A program made the translations under genes and the position numbers. DNA of 64,000 nt from Ramlibacter albus (GTDB lineage: Bacteria > Pseudomonadota > Gammaproteobacteria > Burkholderiales > Burkholderiaceae_C), in contig NZ_JACORU010000001.1 in assembly GCF_014297445.1 (NCBI RefSeq), positions 868,001 to 932,000 on the forward strand. The letters are read 5' to 3'. The notes under the pieces were generated by a model. That model did no database searches, was not told the DNA's origin, and saw only the letters and a list, made by a program, of their open reading frames with translations. Positions 40,354 to 64,000 of this stretch are shown here, piece by piece; position 1 is the first letter of the stretch, and each line of letters starts with the position of its first letter.

Positions 40354-40748
40354 GCGCATCGGCCGGGCTCGTGCGCCGGCTTGCGCAGAACCGGGTTGCG
40401 CGGTTCATCGTCGTCGGCGGCGTGAACACCGTGTTCGGCTACGGCTGCTTCTGGCTGCTGCTGTACGTGGGGCTGCATTACTCGATGGCCTTGCTGATCG
40501 GCACCGTGCTGGGCGTGCTGTTCAACTTCAAGACCACCGGCACGCTCGTCTTCGGCTCGCACGATAACCGGCTGATCTTCCGCTTCGTGGGCTCCTACGT
40601 CTTCACCTACTTCTGCAACCTCGCGGGGCTGCGCGTGCTGGTGGGGGCCGGCTTCTCGCCGCAGGTGGGCGGGCTGCTCCTGATCCTGCCCATGGCCGCG
40701 GTTTCGTTCGTCATCCTGCGCAGGTTCGTCTTCGCCGCCAAAACATGA
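40350..40748 (+). CDS. GtrA family polyprenyl-phosphate-sugar flippase
   Basis: A 132-residue membrane protein with four helices and the GtrA signature '[20 protein letters not shown]' (about 18-37). A '[11 protein letters not shown]' loop follows, and the protein ends with Arg-rich '[11 protein letters not shown]'. GtrA/GtcA proteins flip undecaprenyl-phosphate-linked single sugars across the inner membrane. The start is GTG overlapping the moaC stop. Its own stop overlaps the GT2 start by ATGA, making the classic gtrA-gtrB pair. Confidence 0.9.
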
Positions 40749-48875: not shown

Positions 48876-48901
48876 GCGGGTCACCTCTCGGGTGCGGGTA
48901 T

Positions 48902-50776
48902 CTACAGGCCGCGCGCCGCGAGCGAGGCGGGCGCGACTTCGCCGCCCATCCATTCGCGCAGCACGTCGATGGGCAGCAAAGGGGTCATGTCTTCGAGCGG
49001 CATGGAGAGCATGCTGCCGTCCGGCTGCGGCAGCGAGGCGCATCGCGGCCACAAGGCTTCGTCCTTGACGAGGCCGACGCGCAGCAGGCGCGGGCCGCTC
49101 GCCTTGGGGTCCATGAGGCGTGCCAGCGCGCCGCCCACGTTGGCCAGGTCGTCCACCTCGTCGTACGCGATGCCGAAGGCGCCGCAGGTGGCGCGCCAGT
49201 CGGGGAACAGCACGCCCGCCTCGCCGCCGGTGCCGACGTGGCGGCCCTTGAAGTAGTTGCGCTGCGTGAGCCGGATCGACGCGTAGCCCGCGTTGTCCAT
49301 CAGCACGATCGCGAGGTCGGGCGCGCGCGCGCGCAAGGTGGCGAGCTCCTGCAGGTTCATCATCAGGCTGCCGTCGCTTTCGACCAGCACCGCGCGGCGG
49401 CCGGGTTGCGCTTCGCACGCACCGATGGCAGCCGCAAGGCCATAGCCCATCGCGCCGAGGCCGGACGTGAGGAACACGCGCTGGCCCGCGCGGTTGCGAA
49501 AGCCCAGGTAGAACGACTCCACGCACAGGCCGGAGCTGCCGGTGACCACGAGCGCGCCTTCGGGCACGGCCGTCGACAGCTCGTGCGCGACGTCGGCCGA
49601 TTCGATCGGGCCTTTCGCTGCCGGCTTCGCGCCGTCGCGCGCGGGGAAGCGCCGCTTGACGTCGGCGATCCAGGACAGCCACGGGCGGCGATCCGCGGGC
49701 CGCGTTTCCGCCTTGGCGAACGCGGCATCGACCGCGGCGAGCGCGGCCTCGGCCGTCGCCTGCCAGCGGTGCGTGGCCGCACCTTCGAGCTTGGCGAGTT
49801 CGGCCGTGTCGATGTCGAACACGATCTTCTGCGCGTTGCGCGCGAAGCCGCGCGGGTTGTAGGCGGTGACCACGTTGTCCATGCGCGCGCCGATGGTGAT
49901 CAGCAGGTCGCTGCGCTGCACCGCGAGGTTGGCGCAACGCTGGGCGATCGCGCCCGGCCGGCCGGCATTGAGCGGGTCGTCCCACTCCAGCATGTCCATC
50001 GCGTTCCAGGTGAAGACCGCCGGGATCTCGTGGCGGCGCATCACTTCGACAAGACGCTGCGCACAACCGGCGAGCCGCACGCCGTGGCCGACGAGCAGCA
50101 CGGGACGCGACGCACGCGAGACGGCAGCCAGCAATGCGTCGGTGTCCATGGCCCATTGCGCAGGCACGGGCGCCTGTGCGGCCGCCTCGGCGGCAAGCAG
50201 TTCCTTTTCGAAGCGCGCCGCATCGGCGGCCCAGTCGCCGGGATAAGGCGCACCTTGCACGTCCAGCGGCACGTCCACCCAGCACGGCCCCATGCGCCCG
50301 CTGTTGGCGAGGTGCCAGGCCTTGCAGATGCTGCGCAGCGCTTCTTCCGGCGACATCACCGTGGTGGCGAACTTGCACGACGTGGCGGCCATCGCCACGA
50401 CATCGACTTCCTGCGCGCCGCGCTGGCGCACGCCGGTTCCCGCCTTGAGGTCGGCGCGCTTCACCTGCCCCGACACGACGACGAGCGGCGTGGATTCGAT
50501 CCAGGCACCCGCCACGGGCGTGAGGATGTTGGTGGCACCGGGACCGGTCGTCACCATCGCCACGCCGGCATGGCCGCGCACGCGGCCCCAGGCCTCCGCC
50601 GCGATGCCGCAGGCCTGTTCATGGTGGCAATGCACCGGGCCGATCTCCGAGCGGGCCAGCGCGTCGTTCAGATGCATCGCGCCGCCGCCGGGCACGAAGA
50701 AGATCCGGTCCACGCCCTTGGCGCGCAAGTAGGCGAGCAGCGCGTCGGCCGTGGTCATGCGGGGAGTACTGTCCAT
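48902..50776 (-). CDS. ThDP-dependent enzyme, acetolactate-synthase/YerE-like
   Basis: A 624-residue cytosolic thiamine-diphosphate enzyme with the three-domain acetolactate-synthase fold. The pyrimidine-binding domain (about 8-180) has catalytic Glu in 'VHCHHEQACGIAAEAWGRV'. The central domain has 'RPVLLVGHGVRLAG'. The diphosphate-binding domain has 'GLGAMGYGLAAAIGA' and 'ESDGSLMMNLQELATL', where Ser-Asp-Gly replaces the usual Gly-Asp-Gly, and then 'DNAGYASIRLTQRNYF'. Flanked by RfbH and NeuB-like genes, it is unlikely to serve valine synthesis. YerE, which adds a two-carbon unit from pyruvate to CDP-3,6-dideoxy-4-ketoglucose in yersiniose formation, is the best-known analogue (inference). 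It starts 3 bp after the rfbH stop. Confidence 0.85.
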   Translation of the reverse strand: MDSTPRMTTADALLAYLRAKGVDRIFFVPGGGAMHLNDALARSEIGPVHCHHEQACGIAAEAWGRVRGHAGVAMVTTGPGATNILTPVAGAWIESTPLVVVSGQVKRADLKAGTGVRQRGAQEVDVVAMAATSCKFATTVMSPEEALRSICKAWHLANSGRMGPCWVDVPLDVQGAPYPGDWAADAARFEKELLAAEAAAQAPVPAQWAMDTDALLAAVSRASRPVLLVGHGVRLAGCAQRLVEVMRRHEIPAVFTWNAMDMLEWDDPLNAGRPGAIAQRCANLAVQRSDLLITIGARMDNVVTAYNPRGFARNAQKIVFDIDTAELAKLEGAATHRWQATAEAALAAVDAAFAKAETRPADRRPWLSWIADVKRRFPARDGAKPAAKGPIESADVAHELSTAVPEGALVVTGSSGLCVESFYLGFRNRAGQRVFLTSGLGAMGYGLAAAIGACEAQPGRRAVLVESDGSLMMNLQELATLRARAPDLAIVLMDNAGYASIRLTQRNYFKGRHVGTGGEAGVLFPDWRATCGAFGIAYDEVDDLANVGGALARLMDPKASGPRLLRVGLVKDEALWPRCASLPQPDGSMLSMPLEDMTPLLPIDVLREWMGGEVAPASLAARGL

Positions 50777-50779
50777 TGC

Positions 50780-52105
50780 TTATTCGAAAGACACGCCGAG
50801 GAAGGCCTCGACGCGGCTCACGGCGTAATCGAGCATCTCGGTGGTGAGCTGCGGCTGCAGCCCGATGCAGAAGGTGTTGTTCATCACGATGTCGCTGTTG
50901 CGCAAATCGCCGACGGCGCGCCAGTTGCGCCCCATCATCGACGGCTGCCTCGTGATGTTGCCCGCGAACAGCAGGCGCGTGCCCACCCGTTGCTGGTCGA
51001 GATACGTGAGAAGGTCCACGCGCGTCACGGGCGCGTTGTCTTTCAGCGTCAGCGGGAAGCCGAACCACGACGGGTCGGAGTGCTCGGTCGGCTCGGGCAG
51101 CACGAGGTACTCCTCGCAGCTCGCCAACTTGTCACGCAGGTACTTGAAGTTGGCCCTGCGCTGCGCGATGAAGTCCGGCGCCTTCTGCAGCTGCGCGAGC
51201 CCGCAGGCCGCCTGCATGTCCGTGATCTTCAGGTTGTAGCCGAGGTGGCTGTAGATGTACTTGTGGTCGTAGCCCTCGGGCAGGTCGCCCAGCTTCCAGC
51301 AATAGCGCTTGCCGCAGGTGTTCTCCTTGCCGGGCGGGCAGTAGCAGTCGCGGCCCCAGTCGCGGAAGCTCTCGGCGATCACCTTCAGCTCGGAGTTGTT
51401 GGTGAACACCGCGCCGCCCTCGCCCATCGTGATGTGGTGCGCCGGGTAGAAGCTGAGGGTGCCGAAGTCGCCGAAGGTGCCGACCTTCTGGCCGCGGTAG
51501 GTGGAGCCGAGCGCGTCGCAGCAGTCCTCGATGAGCCACAGGTGGTGCTTCTCGCAGACCTCGCGCACGACGTCGAGGTTGTACGGGTTGCCCAGCGTGT
51601 GGGCGAGCATGATCGCCTTGGTCTTCGGCGAGATGGCCTTGCGCAGGCCGTCGACGTCGATGTTGTAGGTGCCGATGTCGACGTCCACGAACACGGGAAT
51701 GGCACCGAACTGCACGATGGGATTCACCGTGGTGGGGAAGCCCGCCGCCACGCCGATCACCTCGTCGCCGGGCTTGATGGCGCGGCTACCGAGCTTGGGG
51801 CTGGTCAGCGCGCTGAACGCGATGAGGTTCGCGGACGAACCCGAGTTCACCGTCATCGCGTGCTTCACGCCGAGGAAGGCCGCGAGCTCCGTCTCGAACT
51901 GGTCGTTGAAGCGCCCGGTGGTGAGCCAACCGTCGAGCGACGCATCCACCATCGAGCGCAGCTCCTCCGCGCCAATGAGCTTGCCGGTGGCCGGCACCAT
52001 GGTGGCGCCCGGCATGAACGGCTGGCGCTTGAGCGCGATCGCCGCGTATTCGTCCACCAACGCGCCGATGCGCGCGCGCAGGTCCAGGAGCGTGTCCCTG
52101 TTCAT
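50780..52105 (-). CDS. rfbH: RfbH/AscC-type CDP-4-keto-6-deoxyglucose-3-dehydrase (E1)
   Basis: A 441-residue PLP- and [2Fe-2S]-dependent enzyme that removes the C-3 hydroxyl of CDP-4-keto-6-deoxyglucose. It has the DegT fold, but with His223-His224 in '[15 protein letters not shown]' at the site of the usual PLP-binding Lys, the hallmark of E1 dehydrases. The iron-sulfur ligands are complete: Cys196, Cys254, Cys256 and Cys264 give the exact C-x57-C-x1-C-x7-C spacing of E1. It needs an E3 reductase partner, which is not in the window, and CDP-4-keto-6-deoxyglucose from an RfbG, also absent here. Coupled to rfbF by ATGA. Confidence 0.93.
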
Positions 52106-52887
52106 CGGCGTCCCTCCGGTTGCCACATCTTCCACGGCGGCGAGCCGCTCGCCCACAGTTCCTCGAGGTAGGTCTTGTCGCGCAGCGTGTCCATCGGTTG
52201 CCAGAAGCCGTGATGCATGTAGGCCTGCAGGTTGCCGGCGTGAGCCATCGCCACAAGCGGCCCCGACTCCCACGACGTGTCGTCGCCTTCGATCAGCTCC
52301 AGCACCTTGGGCGAGAGCACGAAGAAGCCGCCATTGATCCAGCCACCGTCGCCCAGCGGCTTTTCCATGAACTGGCGGATGGCCGTGCCATCGAGCTGCA
52401 CCGCGCCGAAGCGGCCCGGCGGCCGCACGGCCGTCATGGTGGCCATGCGGCCGTGGTGGCGGTGGAAGGCGACGAGCTCGGCGATGTCGACGTTGCCGAC
52501 GCCGTCGCCGTACGTCATGCAGAAGTCGCCGTCCTGCACGTACTCCGAGACGCGCTTGACGCGGCCGCCGGTGCCGGTCTTGTCGCCGGTGTCGACCAGC
52601 GTGACGCGCCAGGGTTCGGCGTTGCGGTGGTGCACTTCCATGCGGTTGGAAGCCATGTCGAACGTCACGTCGGACATGTGCAGGAAGTAGTTGGCGAAGT
52701 ACTCCTTGATGACGTAGCCCTTGTAGCCGCAGCAGATCACGAATTCGTGGATGCCGTGGGCCGAGTACATCTTCAGGATGTGCCAGAGGATGGGCCGCCC
52801 GCCGATCTCGATCATCGGCTTGGGCCGCACGCTGGACTCCTCGGAGATCCGCGTTCCCAGCCCGCCCGCAAGGATGACTGCCTTCAT
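52102..52887 (-). CDS. rfbF: Glucose-1-phosphate cytidylyltransferase
   Basis: A 261-residue nucleotidyltransferase making CDP-glucose, the first step to CDP-dideoxyhexoses. The N-terminal motif is '[20 protein letters not shown]', then '[20 protein letters not shown]'. '[19 protein letters not shown]' and 'DTSWESGPL' further in are typical of the family. Length matches RfbF/DdhA (~257). ATGA overlaps link it to the upstream YfhO-type gene and the downstream rfbH. Confidence 0.95.
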
Positions 52888-55337
52888 TCCGGGATATTAG
52901 CTTGGCGGGTGTCGGCGCCCGCCGCCCGACGATGTGTGGGCGCTGTGGGTTCCCGAGTGGCGCGGCGGCGTCGCTGCAGGAGCACAAGTACCGCAACGGC
53001 CAGCGCGCCGAGCAGCAAACCGGGCACCAGCCCCGGCAGCCGGTAGCGCATTTCCACCTCGAGCTTACCGGCGGTAACAGGCGCCGCGATCATGCCGAAA
53101 TTCGCGGTCATCCAATCCACCGGCTGCCCATCGATGCGCAGCTGCCAGCCACGCGACGCGGGGATGGAGAACACAAGGATGCCGGGCGCGTCCGGGTGGA
53201 TCGTGCCCTTGAAGTGGTCGTCCGAGAACTGCGTCACCTGCAGGCCGGTGCGCTGCAGCGCCTGCGCGGGCTGCAGGTAGTGCTCGGGCACGTTGACCAC
53301 GCCCTTGTCCGCGACCGCGGCGAGGTCGAAGCGGCCGCCCAGTTGCGGCATCGGCGTGTCGACCACCACCGCGTTGACGAGCGCGAGGTCCTTGAGCCAG
53401 CGCGCGCGCTCGATCGGCAAGGACGAAAGGCTTGCCATCTCGGCGGCCGTCACCTGCTTCGTGTGCACCACGCCCAGCGGAAACGCGAGCTCGTTGCGGT
53501 AAGCGAACCAGTCCTTGCCCGAGCCGACCTTCTCCAGCCCCACCCAGTCGAGCGGGTAGTGGCTGACGATGTAGCGCACGCCCAGCACCGACTGCAGCAT
53601 GAAGCGGTTGCCCGGCGGCGGCAGCCAGTTGGTGAAATTGACGGCCCGCTTGCTGCCGCCGTCGAGCAGCATGTCCACGCCGGCATGGAAGTTCACGATG
53701 CCGCGGCCATGGTAGTAGTAGGACTTGACGCCCCGGTAGTCCTGCGCCATCGCGTCGCCGAGGCCGAACGTGTCGAAGGTCTTCTCCACGCGGTAGAAGA
53801 GGGGCGGCTTGTCGGCGCGGATGGCATCGAGCGCGGGCAGCGTCACGTCGTCGTAGGGGCGCTCGTCGGGCCGCACGTGCGTGCGCATCACGTAGTACGA
53901 GGGCCACGCGGTGGTGACGAGCTCCACGATCATCAGCGCGAGCAGGATGGAGGGCAGCTTCGCCTGCAGCCCGCGCACGCGCGTGGCAAGGGCGAGCGCC
54001 GCCGCACCCGCGGCGATGAACACGGCCATTCGCACGGCGTGCTCGCCGGATGCCGGCGGGAAGAACGCCATCGCGAGCAGCAGCAGCCACACCGCACCCG
54101 CGCCGACGGCCAGCATCGGCAAGTCCGCGCCGCGCGTGAGCACCCGATCGAGCGCGGGCGTCGCGAGCACCAGCAGGCCCAATGTCACCCAGATCAGCGT
54201 GCCGCGGAAGTACGGCACCGCGAAACCGAATGCGGCAAGCCGGAACACCGGCAGCAGCATGTAGAGCGCGATAGCCGTGAGGCCGGCAACGAGCATGCGG
54301 CGCTGCGCGGGCGTGCCGCGCCACAGCTGCGGGATGACCAGGAGCGGCAGCATGCCGACGTAGAACCCCGGGCTCTCCAGGTAGTTCATGTACGAACGGT
54401 GGAAGCCGCCGATGCCGAAGATGTCCTTGTGGAACAGCCCGCCGACCTGCAGCAGCAGCATCGACAGGTCCGTCACCGCGAACGCCTCGCCCGCCACGCG
54501 GCTGAGTGCCGAGGCCGTGCCGCCGCCGACGCGCGGGCTGTCGAGCAGTTGCAGGGCCATCGGGATCACGTAGGGCGCGGCCAGCAGGAAGCCGAGCGCC
54601 GCGAGCGGCACCATCCGCGTGAGCCAGGTGCGCAGCATCGCGCGCGGGTCTTCGGAAGCAGCCACGCAGACCGCGCCCGCAACCGCGAGCGAAACGCCCA
54701 CCATCAGGAAGAACACGCCCGTGGACAGCACCGCCGCGACCGCGAGCGGGAAGGTGACGACGTCGCCATGGCGCAGGTGGCGCTGGATGCCCCACAGCAC
54801 CAGCGGCGCGAACACGTAGATGCTGGTCTCGGAATCCCACACGCCGTTGCTGACGATGTAGCCGCAGAACGAATAGGCGAGCGCCACGAGCAGCGCGCTT
54901 TCCTTGCGCTCGACCCAGCCGCGCGCGAAGAGGAAGAAGAAGCCGCCGCCCAGCGCGATCTTCAGCAGGTACACCCAGATGCGCAGGTCGGCCACGTGCT
55001 CGGCGCCGCCGAGCTGGCTGAGCAGCCCGAAGGGGTCGTTGAACATGAACACGACCGGCGCGCCCAGCCCGAGGCTGAACGACCAGCCGGAGAAGCCCTC
55101 GCGGCCGAGCAGGCGCGCCAGGTGCATGCCGCCGGTCATCGAGTGGTACGTGTCGGACGCGATGTCGAGGAACGCGAAGTTCAGCACGCCGGTGATGAAC
55201 GGGAAGAGCACGATCAGCGCGACCAGCGCCTGCAGCCCGAGCAGCGGCAGCCACTGCTTCCACGTGGCCTCGCGCGGGGCAGGCGTTGCGTGCGGCAGCG
55301 TGGCCGCCGCGGAAAGTTCCGTTCCTCCTGTGTGCAT
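52884..55337 (-). CDS. YfhO-type multi-pass membrane protein, copy 2
   Basis: An 817-residue inner-membrane protein with about 12-13 helices. A long periplasmic domain of ~300 residues near the C-terminus contains '[14 protein letters not shown]' and the YfhO-type '[20 protein letters not shown]', and is followed by a last helix and an Arg-rich tail. YfhO in Bacillus and relatives is a GT-C-like enzyme that moves a sugar from undecaprenyl phosphate to a surface polymer. It is a paralogue of the protein at 56837-59299, sharing motifs over the full length. The start at 55337 has AGGGGA upstream. It lies between the PglL-like ligase gene (10-bp gap) and rfbF (ATGA overlap). Confidence 0.85.
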
Positions 55338-55347
55338 CGATGTCCCC

Positions 55348-56826
55348 TCAGCGCGAATCCAGTATAGGTGCCGTGTGTTGCGTATCCGCCGCGGATGCGC
55401 CCCGCCAGCGTGCATATTCCTTGGGAAACGCCGCGCGATAGCGCGCCGCGTGCCACGCGGCCTCGTCCGCGCGCCCGAGCAGGCGGGCGCTCTCGATCAG
55501 CTTCTCCGCCACCATGGGCTCGGGCGAGTAGTGCAGCGCGCCGAGCGCGAGTTCGTGCACGCGCTGCGCGGTGCGCGCATCGACGTCGCTGATCGACAGC
55601 TCCGCGAAGTGCAGTTGCGCGCCGAAGAGGAGCGTGCGGCCCGCGGCGGCGATCGGGTCTTCCCGGAAAGCCCGCCAGCGGTCGGGCGGCAGGCGGTAGG
55701 CCTGGCTCACCTTGGCGTACTCGAAAGCCGCGTACGCGATGGCGGCCAGCCCGAGCCCCACGAACGCGCCCGCTGCGGCCCCGATGCGCAGCGAGTAGCC
55801 GGGGCGCCGCTGCGGCAACAGCAGCAGCACCGAGTACAGGGCGGCCAGCTGGAAGGGCCCGTACCAGAGCGGGTATTCGAGCATGCTGTGCAGCGCAATG
55901 AGCAGCAGCGCGGTCCATGCGAGTTGCCGGTGCGTGTCCGCCTCGTGCCACGGCCGCCCGCGCCACACGGCCGCGAGCAGCACGGCCGTCACCAGCAGCG
56001 CGGCGGGCACGCCCAGTTCCACCGCGATGTGCAGCGGCAGGTTGTGCGCGTTGTCGAGGATGTCGCAGAAGCGCTCGCCCGGATACAGCGTGGCGTAGTG
56101 CGCGTAATCGAGTTCGCCGATGCCCCAGCCGGTCCACGGCCGCTGCGCGATGAGGTATGCCACGTTGCCCCACAACACCTTGCGGCTGCTGCACCCCAGC
56201 TCGCTGAACGCGCGGCCGACGGCCGTGGCCGCATCCACGCCGCGCCACTCCATCAGCGCCCAGGGGAGCAGCAGGACGGCCGCGATGTAAGCCGCAATCG
56301 CCACCGCACAGGTCCGCAGCCGCTCGCCGCGCGCACCCGGCCACGCAGCTGCGAGGACAGTGATCGCGGCGACCTGCAGCAGCCCGGTGCGCGAGGATGA
56401 CGCGACGCTCGCGACTGCGAGCAGGGCCGCTGCCGCGTACGTCGGCGCCTTCGGCATGGAAGGTGCCCAGACCAGCGCGGCCAGCCCCAGCGACATCAAC
56501 GTGGCGAACTGGTTGCGCTGGCGCAGGTTGCCGTACGCCTCGCCGACCTGCGCCGTGCTGATGCCCGCAACGTCCGGCGCCACGCCGAACCACTGCGCGA
56601 GGCCGATCACGGCCGACACGAGCGCCGCGACGGTCCAGGCCTGCGGCAAGGTGGCGCGCAGCAGTTCGGTGCGATCGCCCGCGAGCAGCAGCGGCACTGA
56701 CAGCAGCAGGCAGGTCCACGCACCGAGCAGCGGGCCCACGTTGGGCGACGGGCCCGGCGTGTAGGCCCACAGCCATGGCAGGACCATGAGCAGCAGCAGG
56801 GGCATGCGAAGCGCGCGTGGATGCAT
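55348..56826 (-). CDS. PglL-like O-oligosaccharyltransferase / Wzy_C O-antigen ligase family
   Basis: A 492-residue inner-membrane protein with about 11 helices. The N-terminal part carries the PglL-type stretch 'GEAYGNLRQRNQFATLMSLG' (about 91-110). A conserved periplasmic segment has 'DNAHNLPLHIAVELGVPAAL' (about 255-274), with the catalytic-type His. The C-terminal soluble region (about 395-492) corresponds to the Wzy_C_2 part of pilin ligases. PglL/PilO enzymes transfer lipid-linked glycans en bloc to Ser/Thr of pilins. The presence of pilin genes upstream supports this over a pure LPS ligase role. The start at 56826 leaves 10 bp after the upstream stop; a start at 56805 is possible. Confidence 0.82.
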   Translation of the reverse strand: MHPRALRMPLLLLMVLPWLWAYTPGPSPNVGPLLGAWTCLLLSVPLLLAGDRTELLRATLPQAWTVAALVSAVIGLAQWFGVAPDVAGISTAQVGEAYGNLRQRNQFATLMSLGLAALVWAPSMPKAPTYAAAALLAVASVASSSRTGLLQVAAITVLAAAWPGARGERLRTCAVAIAAYIAAVLLLPWALMEWRGVDAATAVGRAFSELGCSSRKVLWGNVAYLIAQRPWTGWGIGELDYAHYATLYPGERFCDILDNAHNLPLHIAVELGVPAALLVTAVLLAAVWRGRPWHEADTHRQLAWTALLLIALHSMLEYPLWYGPFQLAALYSVLLLLPQRRPGYSLRIGAAAGAFVGLGLAAIAYAAFEYAKVSQAYRLPPDRWRAFREDPIAAAGRTLLFGAQLHFAELSISDVDARTAQRVHELALGALHYSPEPMVAEKLIESARLLGRADEAAWHAARYRAAFPKEYARWRGASAADTQHTAPILDSR

Positions 56827-56836
56827 GCGTGCAACT

Positions 56837-59299
56837 TCAGGCGGCGGCGCGCCGGCGCGCGCGCAGCAGCAACAGCAGCAGCACGCCGAGCCCGGCACCG
56901 GCCAGCCAGAGCCCCTGCACCAGGCCCGGCACGCGGTACTTCAATTCGATGCGGTGCGTGCCCGCCTCGACCGGCGCGGCGAGCATGCCGTAGTTCGCGG
57001 CGAACCACGGCACGGGTTGGCCGTCGACCTGCAGCGTCCAGCCGCGCGAGGCCGGAATCGAGAAGACGAGGATGCCGCGTTCCTCGGGGCGGATGGTGCC
57101 GGCGACGTGGTCGTTGGCGAAATGCGTGACTTCGAGTCCGGTGCGCTGGAGTGCGCGGGCCGGCTCCGCGTAATGGGACTCGGTGTACTTCGACGGATCG
57201 TCGAGGTCGCTGCGGGCCGCCCAGACGTGCGTCCAGCCGCCGATGCCGACGATGCCGTACTCGGGCGGCACGCCGGCGTCGCTGTCATGGGCAGGCATCG
57301 AGAGGTCGGCAAGGCGTCCCCACCGCGGCATCGGCTCGCCGAGCACGACGGCGTTCGCGAGCACGAGGTCCTTCAGCCACACCCCGCGCCGCAGGCAGGC
57401 GAACAGCTGCATCTGCGCCTCCGTGACCTGGCGCGTGTGCACCACACCCAGCGGCAGCGCGAACTCGTTGCGGTACACGGACCAGCCGCGGCCCGCGGCG
57501 ACCTTCTGCAGGCCGTACCAGTTCAGCGGGATATGGCTGATGAGGTAGCGCACACCCAGCGCGCTGTGCAGCATGTAGCGGTTGCCGGGGGACGGCAGCC
57601 AGTTGGTGTGGTTCACGAGCTTCGAGCCCGTGAGCAGGTCCATGTTCTCGTGGAAGCGGACCACGGAGCGTCCATGGTAGTAGTACGACTTCACGCCGCG
57701 ATAGTCCTGCGCGAGCGCGTCGTTCAGCACCCACGCGAGGCTGTCGAACGTCTTCTCCACCCGGTAGAAGGGCGGCGGGTTGTCGGCGCGGATCGCGGCG
57801 AGCGCGGGCAGCGACAGGTCGTCGAAGGGCCGCTCGTCCGGCTTCACGAGCATGCGCTTCTCGTTGAACGAGGGCCAGGCCGTTGCCGCAAGTTCCACGG
57901 CGAGCAGCGCCAGCAGCACCGCCGGCAATGCCGCGCGCGAGATGCGCCCGGTCGCAGCCGTCGCGAGCACCACGCCCCACGCGATGATCGCGAAGGCCAT
58001 GCGGGCCGCGTGCTCGATCTGCACCGGGGCCAGCCAGGCGACGACTTCGAGCAGCACCAGCAGGGTCCCCGCGCCGACGAGCAGCATCCGGCGGTCGACG
58101 CCGTGCACCAGGACGCGGTCGAGCGCGCGCACGCCGAGCACCAGCAGGCCGAGCGTCACCCAGACCAGCGTGCCGCGGTAGTACGGCGCCGCGAAGCCGA
58201 AGGCAGACAGCCGCACCAGCGGGAACAGCATGTACACCGCGATGCCCACGAGCCCCACGACGAGCAGGCGCCGGTCGGCGGCCGTGCCGCGCCACAGCTG
58301 CGGCAGCACCACCAGCGGCAGCATGCCGACGTAGAAGCCCGGGCTGTCGAGGTACTGCATCCACGACCAGTGGTAATTGGCGACGCCGAAGATGTCCTTG
58401 TGGAACAGGCCGCCCAGCTGCAGCAGCAGCTGGTAGCCCTCGCTCGGTGCGAGCCCGCGGTCGATGAAACGCTCCAGTTGCGAGGCGGTGCCGATGCGCG
58501 GGCTGTCGAACAGCTGCAGCACCATGGGCAGCTCGAACGGCGCGGCCAGCACGAAACCGAGGGCGCACAGCGGCAGCACGCCCAGCAGCCAGCGGCGCGC
58601 CATCGCGCGCGGCTGCTCCGCCGCCGCCACGCACAGTGCGAACGCCACGAGCAGCGACACGCCGACGAGCAGGAAGAACACGCCGGCGCACAGGGTCGCC
58701 GCGAGGGCCAGCGGCAGCGCCACCACGTCGCCCGTGCGCAGGTGGCGCCGGATGGCCCAGGCCACGAGCGGCGCGAAGACGAAGATGTTCGTCTCCGAGT
58801 CCCAGATGCCGTTGACGACGACGTAGCCGCAGAACGAATACGCCAGCGCCGCGATCACCGCCGTTTCGCGGCGCTCGGCCCAGCTGCGGGCCAGCAGGTA
58901 GAAGAAGCCGCCGCCCAGCGCGATCTTCAGCAGGTAGACCCAGAGGCGCAGCTGGGCGACATGGTCGGCCCCGCCCAGCTGGCTGAGGAGCATGAACGGG
59001 TCGTTGAACATGAACAGCGTCGGCGCGCCCAGCCCGATGCTGAACGACCAGCCGGGGATGCCTTCGGTGGCGAAAAGTCGCGCGAGGTGCATGCTGCCGG
59101 CGCGCCCCTGGTGCGTGTCGGTCGCCACGTCGAGGAAGGCGAAGTCGTACTCGCCGGTGATGAACGGGAACAGGACCACGAGCGCGACCAGCGCCAGCAA
59201 GGCCAGCAGCAGCGCCGGGCCCCAGCGCAGCCACGTTCGCTGCACCGGCGCGCCCGCCGCCGCATCGGGCAGGCCCAGGTCCACGGCTTCGCGTCTCAT
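56837..59299 (-). CDS. YfhO-type multi-pass membrane protein, copy 1
   Basis: An 820-residue inner-membrane protein with the same plan as the protein at 52884-55337. The first helix region has '[20 protein letters not shown]'. Many helices follow to about residue 490, then a periplasmic domain with '[14 protein letters not shown]' and '[20 protein letters not shown]', and a final helix plus Arg-rich tail. The two copies flank the PglL-like gene and probably arose by duplication. The start at 59299 lies 8 bp after the glycosyltransferase stop. A GT-C-type sugar transfer role is inferred from YfhO. Confidence 0.85.
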   Translation of the reverse strand: MRREAVDLGLPDAAAGAPVQRTWLRWGPALLLALLALVALVVLFPFITGEYDFAFLDVATDTHQGRAGSMHLARLFATEGIPGWSFSIGLGAPTLFMFNDPFMLLSQLGGADHVAQLRLWVYLLKIALGGGFFYLLARSWAERRETAVIAALAYSFCGYVVVNGIWDSETNIFVFAPLVAWAIRRHLRTGDVVALPLALAATLCAGVFFLLVGVSLLVAFALCVAAAEQPRAMARRWLLGVLPLCALGFVLAAPFELPMVLQLFDSPRIGTASQLERFIDRGLAPSEGYQLLLQLGGLFHKDIFGVANYHWSWMQYLDSPGFYVGMLPLVVLPQLWRGTAADRRLLVVGLVGIAVYMLFPLVRLSAFGFAAPYYRGTLVWVTLGLLVLGVRALDRVLVHGVDRRMLLVGAGTLLVLLEVVAWLAPVQIEHAARMAFAIIAWGVVLATAATGRISRAALPAVLLALLAVELAATAWPSFNEKRMLVKPDERPFDDLSLPALAAIRADNPPPFYRVEKTFDSLAWVLNDALAQDYRGVKSYYYHGRSVVRFHENMDLLTGSKLVNHTNWLPSPGNRYMLHSALGVRYLISHIPLNWYGLQKVAAGRGWSVYRNEFALPLGVVHTRQVTEAQMQLFACLRRGVWLKDLVLANAVVLGEPMPRWGRLADLSMPAHDSDAGVPPEYGIVGIGGWTHVWAARSDLDDPSKYTESHYAEPARALQRTGLEVTHFANDHVAGTIRPEERGILVFSIPASRGWTLQVDGQPVPWFAANYGMLAAPVEAGTHRIELKYRVPGLVQGLWLAGAGLGVLLLLLLRARRRAAA

Positions 59300-59307
59300 C
59301 GCGCCCC

Positions 59308-62208
59308 CTAGGCGGGCTGCCGTTCGGCGAAGAACGCGCTGGCGACCTGCGCCGCCTCCGCGGGGCTGCGCACGGGAACGGAGAGCGCCAGCGTGTCCTC
59401 GTCCGTCATCGGGAAGGGCTCCAGGGCCAGCAGGTCGGCGCAGCGCACGCGCGCTTCGGCGTGGTTCGACGTGTCCAGCGGGATCGCGGCGTCGACGAAG
59501 ACGCCGAGGTCGCGGCTGACGACGAGCCGGCGGCCCTCGGCCGCGAGCCGGTTGCTCCAGAACTCCTCCAGCAGGGCATGCGAGCCGAGCAGTTCCTCGT
59601 CGAAGAGGGCCGGCACGCCCGCGCGCGCGGCGAGCAAGGCGCCATCGAGTACCGCCATGCCGTCGGCGCGGCGCGCCGTGCCCGCGCCGACGATGTTGAC
59701 GTCGGTGAAGCCCTCCGCCTCGCGCGAGCGCGAGAGGAAGCAGGCGGACTTCAGCGCGTACTCCTCGGCACGCCAGTCCATGCGCGTCCAGCGGCGCGCG
59801 CCGGCGAAGCCGACGACGTCGGCGCCTTCGAGCGCTTCAGCCACTTCCAGTGCGAACCCGGGGCCATGGATCTCGACGTTCTTCTGCATCAGCACGACGA
59901 TGTCGGTCCCGGCACCGGCCAGTGCTTCGACATACGCCTCGATGCGGTCGCGCTCGCGGCAACGCTCGAAGTCCATCTCCCAGCCGTCCGGGCAAGTGCA
60001 CGTGGCCTTGACCTGCCGCCGGATCGCGTCGAAGCGCTCCGGCTCGTCGCAGGGCACGACGAACACGATCCGTCGCGCCGGCCCTGCGGCAGCGGCGCGG
60101 GCAGGTGCGTCGGCCGCCGCGAGCGCGCAGCGATACAGCGCGAGCTGCTCGCGGTCGAAGGCGTCCGTGACGTCGAGCGCGAGCGCGCGCTGCAGCAGCT
60201 CGCCCGCGGCGTCGCGCCGGCCGGCGAGCAGCTGGAAGCGGATCGCAAGGATCAGCATCGACGCGTGTTCCGCGGGGTTCAGGCGGCTACCCTGCTCGAT
60301 CAGGTAGGCGATGGCTTCGTCGCCCTTGCCGTCGACCGTCATCAGCTGCGCGCGCAGCAGGTGGGCCGTGCCGGTTTCGGGGTGGTGCTCGAGGCAGTGC
60401 GCGACGATGCGCCTGGCGGCCTCGACGCGGCCGTAGCGCGCAACCGCGTATGCCCGGCGCACCAGCTCGCGCGCTGGCAGCACCGGCACTTTGGTTTCGT
60501 AGTGGAACTCGCCTGCATTGCGGCGCGCGAGCAGGTCTTCGACAGCGCGCTCGAAATCGCGTGCGAACAGTTTGCCGTTGCCGAGGGTGCAGGCGCGGTA
60601 CTGCTCGCGCGCGCCGGCGCGGAAGCGCGTGAGGAAGTCGACATCGCGGGCAAGCGCCACCGCGCGGTCGGCGTAGGCGTCGAGGTCGGGCACTGCAAGG
60701 TCGGCAGCGCCCATCGCAGCCATCACCGAGAGGCCCATCCGGCTGATCAGCGACTCGCCGTAGAAGCTGACCACCGGCACGCCCATGTAGACGGCCAGGC
60801 ACGACGTGGTGCCACCGTTGAACGGGAAAGTGTCGAGGACGATGTCGAGCTCATGGTAGGTCTCGTACAGTGCGTGGCCGTGCGCCGGCTTGAGCAGCTC
60901 CACGCGGTCCATCGGCAGGCCCGCGGCGGCGAAGCGCTTCTCGTTGGCCTTGCGCGACTCCTCGTCCTCGAAGCTGATGGAGCGCACGAGCAGGCGGCTG
61001 TCCTCCACCCGCTCGAGGATCGACTTCCATGCGGCAAGCAGGCGCGCCGAGATCTTGGCGACGTTGCCCGCGCAACCGAACGTCACGTAGCCCTTGGCCA
61101 GCACCGGCGGCGGCGCCGGCTCCGGTGCGTCCTCCATCGGGTCGAAGCACCAGAAGGTGCCGGGCAACGCCACCGGCGCCTCGGTGTAGTAGCGCTGCGG
61201 GTCGGGGCCGGCCGCGTGCACGTCCACGAGTTTCGCGTCGAGCCCGCGCAGCCCGGTCGTCGAAGGGTCGCCCAGCGCCGTCATCTGTACCGGCGCCAGC
61301 CTGCGCTGGAACAGGTGCAGGCGGTTGAACGACGTGTGGCCCGCCAGTTCGACGAGGATGTCGATGCGGTCCTCGCGCACGCGGTCGATCAGCGCGGCGT
61401 CGGACATCTCGTGCACGTCGAGGAAGTGCTCGGACGCGGCCTCGATCAGCTTCGTCTGGGCGTCGGTGACGGGCGAGTCGTGGTACAGGAACAGCTCGAA
61501 GCGGTCGCGGTCATGGTTCTCGTGCAGCGGCCGGAAGAAGTAGCGCACCGAGTGGCTGCGGAAGTCCGGCGAGAGGTAGCCGATGCGGATGCGGCGGCCT
61601 TCGAGGGGCTGCGGCGCGAGCGGCTTCTCGCCGTGCGCGGCGGGCGGCGCCGTGTCGGCCCAGAAGCGGTGCTCGGACGCGATGCGCTCCTCGGTCACGT
61701 CGGCATAAGCGAGGTTCCAGAGGAAGGAGTTGCCGTGCCGCAGGCTGTCGAACTCGGCGAGCCACGCGCGCAGGTGGAAACGCGCGGCGCGCTCGGCGTC
61801 GCCATTGCCGATGCAGTAGGCCGCGTAGAAGGCTTCCGCCTGGATCGCCTCGGGGTCGACGACTTTCGCGCGCCGCAGGAAGCGCATCGCCTCCGCGCCG
61901 CGCTTCTGGTCCAGCAGCACGCGCGCGTGGTTGATGATCGTCGGCAGGAAAGTGTCGTCGAGCGAATAGGCCAGCTCGAAGACGTGCTCGGCATCCTTGG
62001 AGCGGCCGACGTACGCGAGGCAGGCGCCGAGGTCGTTGAGCGCGCGCAGCTCGCCCGGCTCGCGCTCCAGCACTTCGCGCAGCTTCTCCATCGAGCGCGT
62101 GACGTCGCCCGCCTCGCGCAGCTTCACTGCTTCGACGAGCATGTTCTCGCGCCATTGCGCGGCCCGCTTCGACTTGGGCACGAAGCGGCGGAGGAGGTTG
62201 GCCAGCAT
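59308..62208 (-). CDS. TPR/OGT-like glycosyltransferase fused to StrF-like glycosyltransferase domain
   Basis: A 966-residue cytosolic protein. TPR-type helices occupy about 20-165. The OGT/SPINDLY catalytic region (GT41-like) is at about 205-560, with 'RIRIGYLSPDFRSHSVRYFF', 'FGCAGNVAKISARLLAAWKS' and 'DTFPFNGGTTSCLAVYMGVP'. A second TPR-like block covers about 575-690. The C-terminal domain (about 708-960) begins 'RIVFVVPCDEPERFDAIRRQ' and has 'DIVVLMQKNVEIHGPGF' and 'DVVGFAGARRW', resembling the StrF/Glyco_tranf_2_5 family. Such TPR-GTs modify proteins (for example flagellin in Caulobacter by FlmG). It is the first gene of the 13-gene operon; a role in protein O-glycosylation of pilin or another surface protein is plausible but inferred. 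Confidence 0.85.
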   Translation of the reverse strand: MLANLLRRFVPKSKRAAQWRENMLVEAVKLREAGDVTRSMEKLREVLEREPGELRALNDLGACLAYVGRSKDAEHVFELAYSLDDTFLPTIINHARVLLDQKRGAEAMRFLRRAKVVDPEAIQAEAFYAAYCIGNGDAERAARFHLRAWLAEFDSLRHGNSFLWNLAYADVTEERIASEHRFWADTAPPAAHGEKPLAPQPLEGRRIRIGYLSPDFRSHSVRYFFRPLHENHDRDRFELFLYHDSPVTDAQTKLIEAASEHFLDVHEMSDAALIDRVREDRIDILVELAGHTSFNRLHLFQRRLAPVQMTALGDPSTTGLRGLDAKLVDVHAAGPDPQRYYTEAPVALPGTFWCFDPMEDAPEPAPPPVLAKGYVTFGCAGNVAKISARLLAAWKSILERVEDSRLLVRSISFEDEESRKANEKRFAAAGLPMDRVELLKPAHGHALYETYHELDIVLDTFPFNGGTTSCLAVYMGVPVVSFYGESLISRMGLSVMAAMGAADLAVPDLDAYADRAVALARDVDFLTRFRAGAREQYRACTLGNGKLFARDFERAVEDLLARRNAGEFHYETKVPVLPARELVRRAYAVARYGRVEAARRIVAHCLEHHPETGTAHLLRAQLMTVDGKGDEAIAYLIEQGSRLNPAEHASMLILAIRFQLLAGRRDAAGELLQRALALDVTDAFDREQLALYRCALAAADAPARAAAAGPARRIVFVVPCDEPERFDAIRRQVKATCTCPDGWEMDFERCRERDRIEAYVEALAGAGTDIVVLMQKNVEIHGPGFALEVAEALEGADVVGFAGARRWTRMDWRAEEYALKSACFLSRSREAEGFTDVNIVGAGTARRADGMAVLDGALLAARAGVPALFDEELLGSHALLEEFWSNRLAAEGRRLVVSRDLGVFVDAAIPLDTSNHAEARVRCADLLALEPFPMTDEDTLALSVPVRSPAEAAQVASAFFAERQPA

Positions 62209-62231
62209 CGGGCGCTTCCGGGGGGTCGGGA

Positions 62232-62261
62232 CCGCGGCACCATTGCCGCGGCCGGATCATA
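62232..62261 (-). promoter_or_regulatory. Possible promoter and leader hairpin of the glycan operon
   Basis: The reverse strand has TATGAT (complement of 62256-62261) as a candidate -10 element, followed by a perfect 8-bp hairpin (62232-62239 with 62244-62251, loop of 4) located 23 bp before the ATG of the TPR-glycosyltransferase gene. No -35 hexamer is clear. The hairpin lacks a U-tract, so it is more likely a leader structure or attenuator than a terminator. Confidence 0.35.
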
Positions 62262-62264
62262 AGG

Positions 62265-62612
62265 TTACCGGCCGCCCCCGCCCGGGGCGGCGGGGCGTTT
62301 CGCGGCGGCCTTCGACATCTCCATCACGAGGCCCTCGGTCGCGACGTCGATGAACTCGTCGGAATAACCGGCATTGCGCAGCTCCCACTTGAAGTGGTTG
62401 GCGAATGCCGCGCGCCGGAAGAACCCCAGGCGGCGCTCGGCCTGGTAGTCGGACGCCGTCTCGTACGTCTTCTCGAGCTGGCGCGTGATGCGGTTGACGG
62501 TGGCGCCCTTGCCCGCGCCGGCCACGCTGTCGGGCGGCAGGGACGCCTTGAGCTTCGTCACCAGGCCGGCAACGAACTCCTTTTCGGCCTCGGTACTCAG
62601 GAACTTCAGCAT
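62265..62612 (-). CDS. Hypothetical protein, 115 residues
   Basis: A small, probably cytosolic protein: 'MLKFLSTEAEKEFVAGLVTK' at the N-terminus, 'RITRQLEKTYETASDYQAER' in the middle, and 'FANHFKWELRNAGYSDEFID' before a Pro/Gly-rich C-terminal tail. It looks all-helical; I do not recognise a family. The longer open frame upstream runs through a terminator and is not used. It lies between the pilin terminator and the glycan operon, on the same strand, 56 bp upstream of the TPR-glycosyltransferase gene. Confidence 0.65.
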   Translation of the reverse strand: MLKFLSTEAEKEFVAGLVTKLKASLPPDSVAGAGKGATVNRITRQLEKTYETASDYQAERRLGFFRRAAFANHFKWELRNAGYSDEFIDVATEGLVMEMSKAAAKRPAAPGGGGR

Positions 62613-62630
62613 CGCGCGACTTCCGGAATG

Positions 62631-62655
62631 AAAAGCCCCCGGCTCGCGGGGGCTT
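62631..62655 (-). terminator. Rho-independent terminator after pilin gene 2
   Basis: A 9-bp GC-rich stem (62633-62641 with 62647-62655, loop of 5) lies about 20 bp beyond the pilin stop. On the reverse strand the stem is followed by TTTTC. It separates pilin transcription from the downstream hypothetical gene. Confidence 0.8.
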
Positions 62656-62676
62656 GCTTTCGGGACCGCAGCGAAA

Positions 62677-63090
62677 TCAGCCGCGGCACGTACCCGGCAG
62701 GTACTTGACCGGCGAACCCTGGCAGGTCCACGTGAGCGTACCGCCACTGGCCGTGGGCGTCAAAGTGACCGTGACGGCCGCACCGACGGAGGCGGAGTTG
62801 CCGCTGACGGTGACGACGCCGTTCGCCGCGACGGAAGCCGCGGACACCTTGCCGACGGGCGCGACGGAGCAGTCGGCCGAGACGTTGCTCGGGATCGTGC
62901 CGCCGTTGGACTGGGTCAGCTCGGTCACGCACGTGCGCGCGCCGGAGGCGGAAAGCATCAGCTCCGAGACCTTGGCGCGGATCGTGTAGTCCTGGTAAGC
63001 CGGCAGGGCCACCGCCGCCAGGATGCCGATGATCGCGACCACGATCATCAGTTCGATCAGGGTGAAGCCCTGTTGCAGTTGACGCTTCAT
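62677..63090 (-). CDS. Type IV major pilin, copy 2 (PilA-like)
   Basis: A 137-residue prepilin: a short basic leader MKRQLQQG, then the mature Phe and the invariant Glu5 in '[20 protein letters not shown]'. The polymerisation helix continues to about residue 55, and the beta domain carries four Cys (54, 74, 123 and 135), probably two disulfides, one of them closing the C-terminal D-loop. PilD-type peptidase would cleave after Gly8. It differs from copy 1 at only five residues (76, 78, 88, 90, 92). GGAGG precedes the ATG. It has its own sigma-54 promoter and a strong terminator, so it can be expressed alone. Confidence 0.95.
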
Positions 63091-63122
63091 TACACCTCCA
63101 GAAATGATTGGAACTCTCGACA

Positions 63123-63138
63123 AGCAATTCACATGCCT
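63123..63138 (-). promoter_or_regulatory. Sigma-54 promoter of pilin gene 2
   Basis: Read on the reverse strand, AGGCATGTGAATTGCT matches the sigma-54 consensus TGGCACG-N4-TTGCW with exact GG-N10-GC spacing (GG at 63137-63136, GC at 63125-63124). The predicted start near 63112 leaves a 22-nt leader with a good ribosome site. PilA is RpoN/PilR-controlled in Pseudomonas and relatives (established), which fits. Confidence 0.8.
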
Positions 63139-63211
63139 TTGGCCGCTGCGGGCTTTCGCGTTGAAAAACCCGCACTGGCCGCCGTCATCGTGACGAATGC
63201 GGCGAATGGCG

Positions 63212-63238
63212 TGACATTCCTGTCATTCAACAATGACA
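63212..63238 (-). promoter_or_regulatory. Overlapping inverted repeats upstream of the sigma-54 promoter, possible PilR sites
   Basis: TGACA-ttcc-TGTCA (63212-63225) overlaps TGTCATT-caac-AATGACA (63221-63238), giving several TGTC units on both strands 100-126 bp before the predicted pilin start. PilR sites described for pilA are TGTC-containing repeats roughly 80-120 bp upstream (established knowledge of P. aeruginosa). The assignment here is inference; the second repeat could also be part of the preceding terminator region. Confidence 0.45.
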
Positions 63239-63260
63239 AAGGCCTCCGCGAGGAGGCCTT
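63238..63260 (-). terminator. Terminator hairpin after pilin gene 1
   Basis: A perfect 9-bp stem AAGGCCTCC/GGAGGCCTT (63239-63247 with 63252-63260, loop of 4) lies about 20 bp beyond the stop of pilin copy 1 and ends in a short T-run (TTTGTC) on the reverse strand. The weak U-tract makes it a moderately strong terminator. Confidence 0.65.
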
Positions 63261-63279
63261 GCCATGTCACAGCGGACGA

Positions 63280-63693
63280 TCAGCCGCGGCAGGTACCCGG
63301 CAGGTACTTCACGGGCGAGCCCTGGCAGGTCCAGGTCAGCGTGCCGCCGCTGGCGGTGGGGGTCAGCGTCACCGTGACGGCCGCGCCGACGGAGGCCGAG
63401 TTGCCGCTCACTGTCACGATGCCGGCCGCGTCCACGGAAGCCGCGGACACCTTGCCGACGGCCGCGATGGAGCAGTCGGCCGACACGTTGCTGGGGATCG
63501 TGCCGCCGTTGGACTGGGTCAGCTCAGTGACGCAGGTGCGAGCGCCGGAGGCCGACAGCATCAGCTCCGACACTTTCGCGCGGATCGTGTAGTCCTGGTA
63601 GGCGGGCAGCGCGACGGCCGCCAGGATGCCGATGATCGCGACGACGATCATCAGTTCGATGAGGGTGAAGCCCTGTTGTAATTGACGTTTCAT
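63280..63693 (-). CDS. Type IV major pilin, copy 1 (PilA-like)
   Basis: A 137-residue prepilin nearly identical to copy 2, with the same leader, N-terminal helix, four Cys (54, 74, 123, 135) and C-terminal 'YLPGTCRG'. The five substitutions (Ile76, Ala78, Asp88, Ala90, Ile92) cluster in one 17-residue stretch. The DNA differs at many synonymous sites, so the copies are not a very recent duplication. GGAG lies about 6 bp before the ATG. Upstream there is only a weak GG-N10-GC site (GG near 63755, GC near 63743), so transcription may come from pilin 3. Confidence 0.95.
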
Positions 63694-63765
63694 GTTTTCT
63701 CCGAGTGGGTGGAAAGGAAGCCCTCGACGACGACTGAGAGCGCTGGGGCCGGGCCGATCGTTCGA

Positions 63766-64000
63766 TCAGCCGCGGCAACTGCCGGGGAGGTACTTCAGGG
63801 GGGTTCCGGCGCACGTCCAGGTGAGCGTGCCGCCCGAAGCCGCGGGCACGAGCGTCACGGTGACCGCCGCGCCGACCGATGCCGAGTTGCCGACGATCGT
63901 CACGACGCCGTTGGCACCGACGTCCGCCGAGGACACCTTGCCGACCGCGGCGATGGAGCAGTCGGCCGAGACGTTGCTCGGGATGATGCCGCCGTTGGAT
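63766..64000 (-). CDS. Type IV major pilin, copy 3 (partial, N-terminus outside the window)
   Basis: The C-terminal 78 residues of a third pilin are visible. They read in frame from the window edge ('[20 protein letters not shown]' and onward) to a stop at 63766-63768. The end is 'LKYLPGSCRG', with the same Cys positions as the other two. It is more diverged, with substitutions along the domain such as 'VTIVGNSASV' and 'CAGTPLKYLPGS'. The N-terminal leader and helix lie beyond base 64000, so it is cut by the window rather than broken. Confidence 0.9.
   Translation of the reverse strand, partial: SNGGIIPSNVSADCSIAAVGKVSSADVGANGVVTIVGNSASVGAAVTVTLVPAASGGTLTWTCAGTPLKYLPGSCRG

Follow-up and report, generated by a model that had tools for sequence, protein, structure and literature searches.

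The window examined here is the whole 64,000-nucleotide stretch of Ramlibacter albus DNA at positions 868001-932000 of contig C1 in genome G000 (NCBI contig NZ_JACORU010000001.1; genome of 6.1 Mb in 39 contigs), one end of which carries three tandem type IV pilin genes followed on the same strand by a long row of genes for glycan synthesis and transfer. The interpretation that we moderately favour is a pilin-glycosylation island at a fixed address, running from a PilB-like ATPase gene and pilA to moaC, which combines two predicted routes: a pathway ending in a PglL-type O-oligosaccharyltransferase, and a cassette composed of a TPR-containing glycosyltransferase of family GT41 and a small helical protein, ORF115. 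Modification of the pilin by at least one of PglL and GT41 is highly probable; modification by PglL is by itself probable, and modification by GT41 is slightly favoured. The genes directly adjoining the pilins are ORF115 and the GT41 gene, which the original prediction, centred on the ligase, had missed. Names of flanking genes used below (moaC, recA, recX, argC, maeB, ffh and the PilB-like ATPase) are those we presume from the sequences. The genes on which the argument turns are the following:

63766 to 64000, minus strand: pilA1, 3′ portion, with the 5′ end outside the window (whole gene at L004 6767-7180), from reading of the sequence
63280 to 63693, minus strand: pilA2, type IV pilin of 137 residues with 4 Cys; PF00114 and PF07963 above cut-offs
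62677 to 63090, minus strand: pilA3, type IV pilin of 137 residues, C-terminus CRG; PF00114 and PF07963 above cut-offs, scored on a frame with one extra codon
62265 to 62612, minus strand: ORF115, helical protein of 115 residues, from sequence and predicted structure
59308 to 62208, minus strand: TPR-GT41 glycosyltransferase of 966 residues; PF13844 at 121.5 bits (cut-off 25) and TPR_19 at 36.1 bits (cut-off 25)
56837 to 59299, minus strand: YfhO1, predicted membrane glycosyltransferase (GT-C) of 820 residues with 12 hydrophobic 19-mers; PF09586 at 192.7 bits (cut-off 28.5)
55348 to 56826, minus strand: pglL, O-oligosaccharyltransferase of 492 residues (open frame to 56898, likely start 56826); Wzy_C, PglL_A and Wzy_C_2

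Pilins and the adjoining cassette

The three pilins are each 137 residues long and share 121 to 132 of these (88-96%) in pairwise comparison. All three terminate in CRG, as expected from the earlier claim that a C-terminal Ser is lacking, and the Ser/Thr-rich stretch at residues 93-120, proposed earlier as a candidate glycosylation site, does hold 11 Ser/Thr in 28 residues, a count equalled by neighbouring 28-residue windows and exceeded by none beyond residue 40. The pilins had also been placed just upstream of the ligase operon on its strand; order and strand are right, but about 5.8 kb with three genes (ORF115, GT41 and YfhO1) separate pilA3 from the ligase, and the first pilin runs off the window. 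Downstream of the pilins, the closely spaced row on one strand reads ORF115, GT41, YfhO1, pglL, YfhO2, rfbF, rfbH and a thiamine pyrophosphate (TPP) enzyme, with gaps of -4 to 64 bases from pilA3 to the TPP gene, the starts of some later genes being bounds only. A terminator-like stem-loop 3′ of pilA2 is a weak feature (2 such sites versus 1.6 expected in shuffles).

ORF115 has no Pfam or NCBIfam match above cut-off. Its model is all helical with a predicted local distance difference test score (pLDDT) of 89.0 (27 sequences) and has no match in PDB at E 0.001 or better, so that no function follows from the fold; a role as adaptor or chaperone is suggested.

The GT41 enzyme has no strongly hydrophobic stretch in a simple count. 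Its best sequence match is SPINDLY (phmmer, 4e-66), and the best of five predicted structures (pLDDT 85.8, the range starting from 57.2) consists of helical repeats at about residues 14-186, a GT41 core at about 207-564, further helical repeats at 579-700 and a C-terminal alpha/beta domain at 713-961. Superposition on SPINDLY (PDB 7y4i) covers 548 residues with Z 43.2 and a root-mean-square deviation of 3.3. According to the available part of the SPINDLY paper, mutation of H495, S496, K665 or T748 kills or lowers activity and Y744 is also important (PMC9715652); the first four correspond to H219, S220, K385 and T467 of the window enzyme and are invariant in 8 relatives. As modelled, the enzyme has the fold and active site of SPINDLY and OGT. 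It is like SPINDLY, OGT and Thermobaculum OGT (PDB 7y4i, 5djs) in fold, in the arrangement of TPR and catalytic parts and in the four key active-site residues, and is unlike SPINDLY and OGT, as far as these are described there, in being bacterial and pilin-linked and in having about 400 extra C-terminal residues (PMC9715652).

The C-terminal domain matches Glyco_tranf_2_5 at E 0.006-0.007 with 16.5-16.8 bits, below the cut-off of 27, and a match to this family at E 1 or better is found in 3 of the 8 GT41 relatives. A profile search of PDB with the domain gave nothing below E 0.6, and the structure-neighbour list for the whole protein, which spans residues 13-571, barely covers it. A model of a viral 226-residue glycosyltransferase-like protein matches part of the GT41 protein, at a range that is not given. 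Caulobacter FlmG, in the available account, binds flagellin through an N-terminal TPR domain and glycosylates it through a C-terminal GT-B domain in the cytoplasm without an oligosaccharyltransferase (PMC7591256). The likeness of the GT41 enzyme to FlmG is one of working model only, with no sequence comparison behind it; FlmG has flagellin as its substrate, whereas a type IV pilin is suggested for GT41, which also has ORF115 and the extra C-terminal part (PMC7591256).

Distribution of the cassette

With the whole GT41 protein as query, 24 of 59 genomes of the genus (a sample drawn from a larger group) gave a match at E 1e-30, full-length only in the own genome and in G024. In the family, 7 of 399 genomes, own included, matched at E 1e-90, each nearly over the full length and each belonging to a different genus; two candidates were scored per genome in this survey, and further relatives may have been missed. 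In all 8 full-length relatives found, from seven genera, pilA and ORF115 directly precede GT41 on the same strand. The query held no pilin, and therefore this linkage was not built into the survey. Gene calling in the relatives relied on crude scripts, which leaves start positions and some small frames uncertain, and family tallies are Pfam matches.

The same eight genomes bear on the relation of the cassette to the ligase. Genomes G205, G368 and G067 have no Wzy_C_2 match, and G247 has one about 660 kb off. Wzy_C is likewise missing from G368 (95% complete), occurs once each in G205 and G067 on a contig other than that of the pilin, and occurs twice in G247, the nearer copy about 70 kb away. 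Because these 4 of 8 genomes yielded no ligase near the pilin, GT41 does not seem to need the ligase. G111 allows no verdict in this respect, with its pilin at the end of one contig and its Wzy_C_2 on a different one. The four frames beside GT41 that were scanned for Glyco_tranf_2_5 all match it above cut-off; those of G205 and G368 share the strand of GT41, and those of G024 and G067 are on the other strand. Further along there are methyltransferases in G205, G368 and G247, and in G364 one barely above cut-off. From their families, these neighbours look like the make-up of a stepwise, lipid-independent system.

Relatives of ORF115 were found in 25 of the 59 genus genomes and, counting the own genome and G020, in 10 of 120 genomes of the family; their contexts were fetched for 16 of the 24 genus genomes besides the own one and for 7 of the 8 further family genomes. 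Among 24 loci, the own one included, ORF115 has a GT41-labelled frame within 2 kb in 20 (scoring above 100 bits in 17; the lower-scoring matches may be to TPRs only) and a pilin within 8 kb in 13, one of them weak. The ORF115/GT41 pair stands between the ATPase and pilA in G042, G019 and G044, and shares its locus with pilin and ligase in G166, G063 and G176. The two families appear, from these gene contexts, to pair generally, with only some branches bound to pilins.

Pairs away from pilins lie at what we take to be sites between recA/recX and argC, or beside maeB and ffh. TPR/GT41-like genes with an ORF115-like partner recur at the former in relatives within the genus (L099-L103, L113-L115 and L118); the counterpart in the recA region of the own genome (L116 6407-8380) has the TPR protein and no ORF115 match. 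At L081 and L106, ORF115 stands beside pilins of their own type with no GT41-labelled gene in the fetched stretch, and another enzyme may fill the role of GT41 there.

Pilin tree and module types

A tree of 41 pilins from 29 genomes was compared with the type of module beside each pilin (G111, with only a pilin end on its contig, was omitted; tree class D came from 14 long-island genomes only, and genomes with short pilA-ligase spacing are absent from it). The four classes, namely 11 pilins accompanied by the long GT41, 6 by the other GT41 form, 5 by ORF115 only and 19 by neither, each occupy one side of a branch, with supports of 89/88, 100/99, 100/97 and 93/87. Three changes, the minimum, place the classes on the tree; the shuffled mean is 19.3, and none of 200 shuffles was as low. 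The pilins of the own genome and of G024 cluster with pilins from other genera rather than with those of their own genus, and this points to joint transfer of pilin and enzyme, as judged from the tree.

The PglL-type ligase and its linkage to pilins

The ligase frame contains GNLRQRNQFATL, as reported earlier, and matches PglL_A (PF15864, 42.7 bits, cut-off 25), Wzy_C (PF04932, 63.3 bits, cut-off 31.7) and Wzy_C_2 (PF11846, 124.1 bits, cut-off 28.5), which bears out its description as PglL-like. Residues present in PglL and not in WaaL are listed, in the accessible part of Schulz 2013, as N. meningitidis Q178, N180, G316, G318, H400, E404 and P406 (PMC3643930). The motifs RQRN, PWTGWG and HSMLEYP of the window ligase fit these residues in their within-motif spacing, a comparison made motif by motif without aligning the N. 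meningitidis sequence. Neither of the other two Wzy_C proteins in the genome has RQ.N or H...E.P; one has P..G.G and the other none of the three. A PDB search returned one oligosaccharyltransferase, 9rmk, at 6.7e-11 and nothing else below E 0.3, and the named relative is at a single locus, in Polaromonas sp. YR568, with 45% identity (one scan of genome contigs). By its three domains and PglL-specific motifs, the gene is classed as PglL.

Two other identities were considered. WaaL is disfavoured, given the PglL motifs and a distinct WaaL-like gene elsewhere: a separate Wzy_C protein without PglL motifs is encoded at L007 on contig C12, next to a gene whose product presumably resembles MsbA. The earlier label also named TfpO. 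A pilin-specific ligase of the TfpO/PilO kind is rejected because all three pilins lack the acceptor C-terminal Ser; PglL_A and Wzy_C_2 are also given as absent from known TfpO and TfpM in the available part of a 2025 review (PMC12645811).

Across the 59 genus genomes, Wzy_C_2 is found in 52 and a PF00114 pilin in 55; a survey of 120 genomes of the family gave a match in 93, above cut-off in 90. Pilin and ligase share a contig in 42 of the 52 ligase-bearing genomes, the contig of the ligase having no pilin match in the other 10. All 42 co-located pairs have the pilin upstream of the ligase and on its strand, at a distance, measured between domain matches, of at most 3 kb in 15, at most 10 kb in 26, at most 20 kb in 41 and 66 kb in one. 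This count omitted the pilin rows of G001, G005, G011, G016, G020, G031 and G040, Wzy_C_2 rows below cut-off and one second ligase piece in G049, none of which affects it.

The islands of 18 genus genomes have recurring flanks, with the ATPase and pilA on one side and moaC on the other. In 12 of 15 fetched stretches holding both genes, the end of the ligase gene and moaC are less than 100 bases apart; in the window the distance is instead about 15 kb. What lies between varies among species and is of glycan type: among the matches listed (25 of 60 families) for 98 cargo proteins of the 18 fetched islands are 26 to GT2, 13 to Glyco_trans_1_4, 10 to each of several methyltransferase families, 5 each to Polysacc_synt and Glyco_transf_9, 4 to epimerase and 3 to ABC2. 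Because the pilin-ligase arrangement is kept across the genus, the description of the locus as a likely pilin glycosylation island is well supported as a statement of genomic linkage, and to that extent the original prediction stands. Its general premise, that pilin-ligase adjacency is the rule, applies in this genus and to most candidates of Schulz 2013, where a pilin occurs in the genetic context of most PglL candidates, those of Polaromonas and Rhodoferax included (PMC3643930), but is too simple, since the 2025 review, in the part available, lists PglL as genetically unlinked to its targets (PMC12645811). Pilin-linked PglL is already known (PMC3643930).

Sugar-pathway and membrane enzymes

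The ligase gene is flanked on both sides by YfhO genes with gaps of 10 bases (52884-59299). Beyond them, the same-strand run continues to a sugar dehydrogenase, and two genes on the opposite strand, followed by the gene read as moaC, end the island:

52884 to 55337, minus strand: YfhO2, predicted GT-C enzyme of 817 residues; PF09586 at 167.8 bits (cut-off 28.5)
52102 to 52887, minus strand: rfbF, glucose-1-phosphate cytidylyltransferase; TIGR02623 at 471.7 bits, above cut-off
50780 to 52105, minus strand: rfbH, lipopolysaccharide (LPS)-type sugar biosynthesis protein; NF011936 at 730 bits, above cut-off
48902 to 50776, minus strand: TPP enzyme of the acetolactate synthase superfamily from family scans, with a presumed sugar-pathway role
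47331 to 48905, minus strand: NeuB-SAF-cupin protein, the frame being an upper bound; PF03102, PF08666 and PF07883
46186 to 47334, minus strand: methyltransferase; PF13489
45072 to 46157, minus strand: FkbM-type methyltransferase; PF05050
44101 to 45153, minus strand: NAD-dependent epimerase/dehydratase, likely start near 45075; PF01370
42998 to 44128, minus strand: second NAD-dependent epimerase/dehydratase; PF01370
41664 to 43022, minus strand: nucleotide-sugar dehydrogenase (UDP-glucose type); TIGR03026 at 402.5 bits, above cut-off
40745 to 41674, plus strand: GtrB/PgfS-like polyprenyl-phosphate glycosyltransferase; PF00535, and NF047588 PgfS at 175 bits, below the cut-off of 500
40371 to 40748, plus strand: GtrA-type membrane protein, putative flippase, start perhaps a few codons off; PF04138 at 56 bits, above cut-off
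39874 to 40353, plus strand: outer flank of the island, which we take to be moaC from reading of the sequence

Judged by enzyme families, the row from rfbF to the NeuB-SAF-cupin gene (47331-52887) may make an unusual deoxysugar; no CDP-glucose 4,6-dehydratase was recognised among its scanned neighbours. YfhO matches occur in 4 of the 59 genus genomes, own included. In the accessible accounts, YfhO is a proposed GT-C enzyme working with a GtrB-like partner and is required for lipoteichoic acid glycosylation in Bacillus subtilis (PMC5836110), and PgfS, PgfM1, PgfE and PgfM2 take part in modification of surface proteins in Streptococcus mutans (PMC5856776). By analogy, YfhO together with the PgfS-like GtrB suggests decoration by polyprenyl-phosphate sugars. 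Like the CsbB-YfhO and PgfS-PgfM systems, of which Pgf modifies surface proteins, the window has a GtrB/PgfS-like enzyme and YfhO/PgfM-like membrane enzymes; those systems, however, are described for Gram-positive bacteria, and the window proteins score below the PgfS and PgfM cut-offs (PMC5836110, PMC5856776). Membership in the PgfM1/PgfM2/PgfS system was rejected on the NCBIfam equivalog cut-offs (48-63 bits versus 1400-1500 for the PgfM proteins, 175 versus 500 for PgfS). With the pilin-linked PglL of Schulz 2013, the window shares the PglL_A and Wzy_C regions, the specific residues and a nearby pilin, and differs in the mid-operon position of its ligase, which has a YfhO gene on either side and a GT41 gene ahead of these (PMC3643930).

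Proposed pathways and alternatives

In the PglL pathway, the products of the RfbF, RfbH, TPP, NeuB-like and epimerase genes would supply a sugar that is assembled on a polyprenyl carrier and then flipped. In the periplasm the YfhO enzymes would decorate the glycan, using sugars that GtrB provides and GtrA flips, and PglL would move the lipid-linked glycan onto an internal Ser/Thr of the pilin on the same side. The genes, their families and their linkage are observed here, and each chemical step is what these would predict. In the GT41 cassette, the soluble TPR-GT41 enzyme, aided by ORF115, would glycosylate Ser/Thr of the prepilin in the cytoplasm, ahead of full insertion into the membrane. 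The sugar would be extended by the C-terminal domain of GT41 or, in relatives, by the neighbouring GT2-type enzyme; GT41 and ORF115 would act on pilin as FlmG does on flagellin in the available account (PMC7591256). The cassette has the active-site residues, the fold, the linkage to one pilin type and the persistence without a nearby ligase described above; that the pilin is the substrate and ORF115 a helper is predicted from these.

A wider proposal, tentative and falling a little short of probable, is that in several genera a dedicated SPINDLY/OGT-like TPR-GT41 enzyme, with ORF115 as a new small partner, glycosylates type IV pilins on the cytoplasmic side, independently of lipid carrier and oligosaccharyltransferase. 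Cassette and PglL islands would be interchangeable at one address. With both present in the window, two kinds of glycan could be attached to one pilin, each from a different side of the membrane.

Several points weigh against the combined island. SPINDLY N661 and Y744 are not conserved and correspond to G381 and F463 in the window GT41. A PglL-type ligase stands beside the cassette in G364, G024 and the window. Many other GT41/ORF115 pairs lie at other sites, and G008 has a GT41 match at 4e-97 to the core only, in a 569-residue frame with no pilin labelled nearby (L129); therefore, neither family is pilin-bound as a whole. In the tree analysis, the program warned of meeting long branches, and tandem near-copies inflate the class test. 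Linked inheritance or tandem near-copies yield the same tree pattern without any enzyme-substrate relation, and therefore the tree supports a unit and not a reaction. Ser/Thr content, rejected as a mark of GT41-linked pilins (mean 0.29 in 9 versus 0.27 in 32, p 0.05, with two G024 pilins, taken from L074, counted in the wrong group), does not clearly distinguish the GT41-class pilins. Both routes are read from gene content and not from biochemistry, and a cytoplasmic enzyme must reach the prepilin before or during its insertion.

The alternative that survives best, although unlikely, is that only PglL modifies the pilin, GT41 and ORF115 being accessory genes that act on other cytoplasmic proteins or make a precursor and travel with a pilin cassette that can be transferred. 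The ligase is a full member of the PglL family, for which pilin linkage is known (PMC3643930), the GT41/ORF115 pairs away from pilins fit an accessory role, and G024 and G364 have both ligase and cassette, like the window; on the other side, the adjoining pilA-ORF115 in 8 of 8 full-length relatives, half of them with no ligase found near the pilin, argues for a tie of GT41 to the pilin itself. It is still less probable that the main targets of the ligase are LPS or other periplasmic proteins, its linkage to pilins being a relic: PglL enzymes are described in the available part of the 2025 review as general and as mostly lacking linkage to their targets (PMC12645811), and rfbF and rfbH are of LPS type, but a separate WaaL-like protein is encoded on C12 and the pilin-ligase linkage is maintained across the genus. 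Least probable is an island for capsule or exopolysaccharide at a transfer hotspot beside pilA with no functional link, since it is the cargo that varies at this address, with a PglL-type ligase and pilins recurring, and since module type tracks pilin type in the tree sample, even though that cargo is diverse and polysaccharide-like and lipoteichoic acid glycosylation in B. subtilis needs YfhO (PMC5836110).

No link of GT41 to type IV pilins was seen in an open-licence library (titles and starts of abstracts), nor any paper there on pilin glycosylation in Ramlibacter. In the parts of two accounts available, pilin O-glycosylation is treated as the work of periplasmic oligosaccharyltransferases, with flagellin as the example of stepwise cytoplasmic glycosylation (PMC7591256, PMC12645811); a pilin-bound GT41 cassette, if real, would break this division. 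It would also match a bacterial OGT/SPINDLY-like enzyme with a substrate encoded next to it, and provide a compact system for studying substrate choice by TPRs. G205, G247, G368 and G067, with the cassette and no ligase found near the pilin, make the GT41 question directly accessible.

Upstream genes and a further pilin

Upstream of the pilins lies what we take, from its sequence, to be a PilB/GspE-type ATPase gene (L004 7371-9797). Upstream of this, L004 9794-17308 presumably encodes two large membrane proteins together with metallo-beta-lactamase-like, FHA-like and PP2C-like proteins; these genes possibly serve pilus regulation and have look-alikes in L090. A fourth PF00114 pilin of the genome (G000:C37:290290-290658, L012) is about 28% identical to a window pilin over the matched part.

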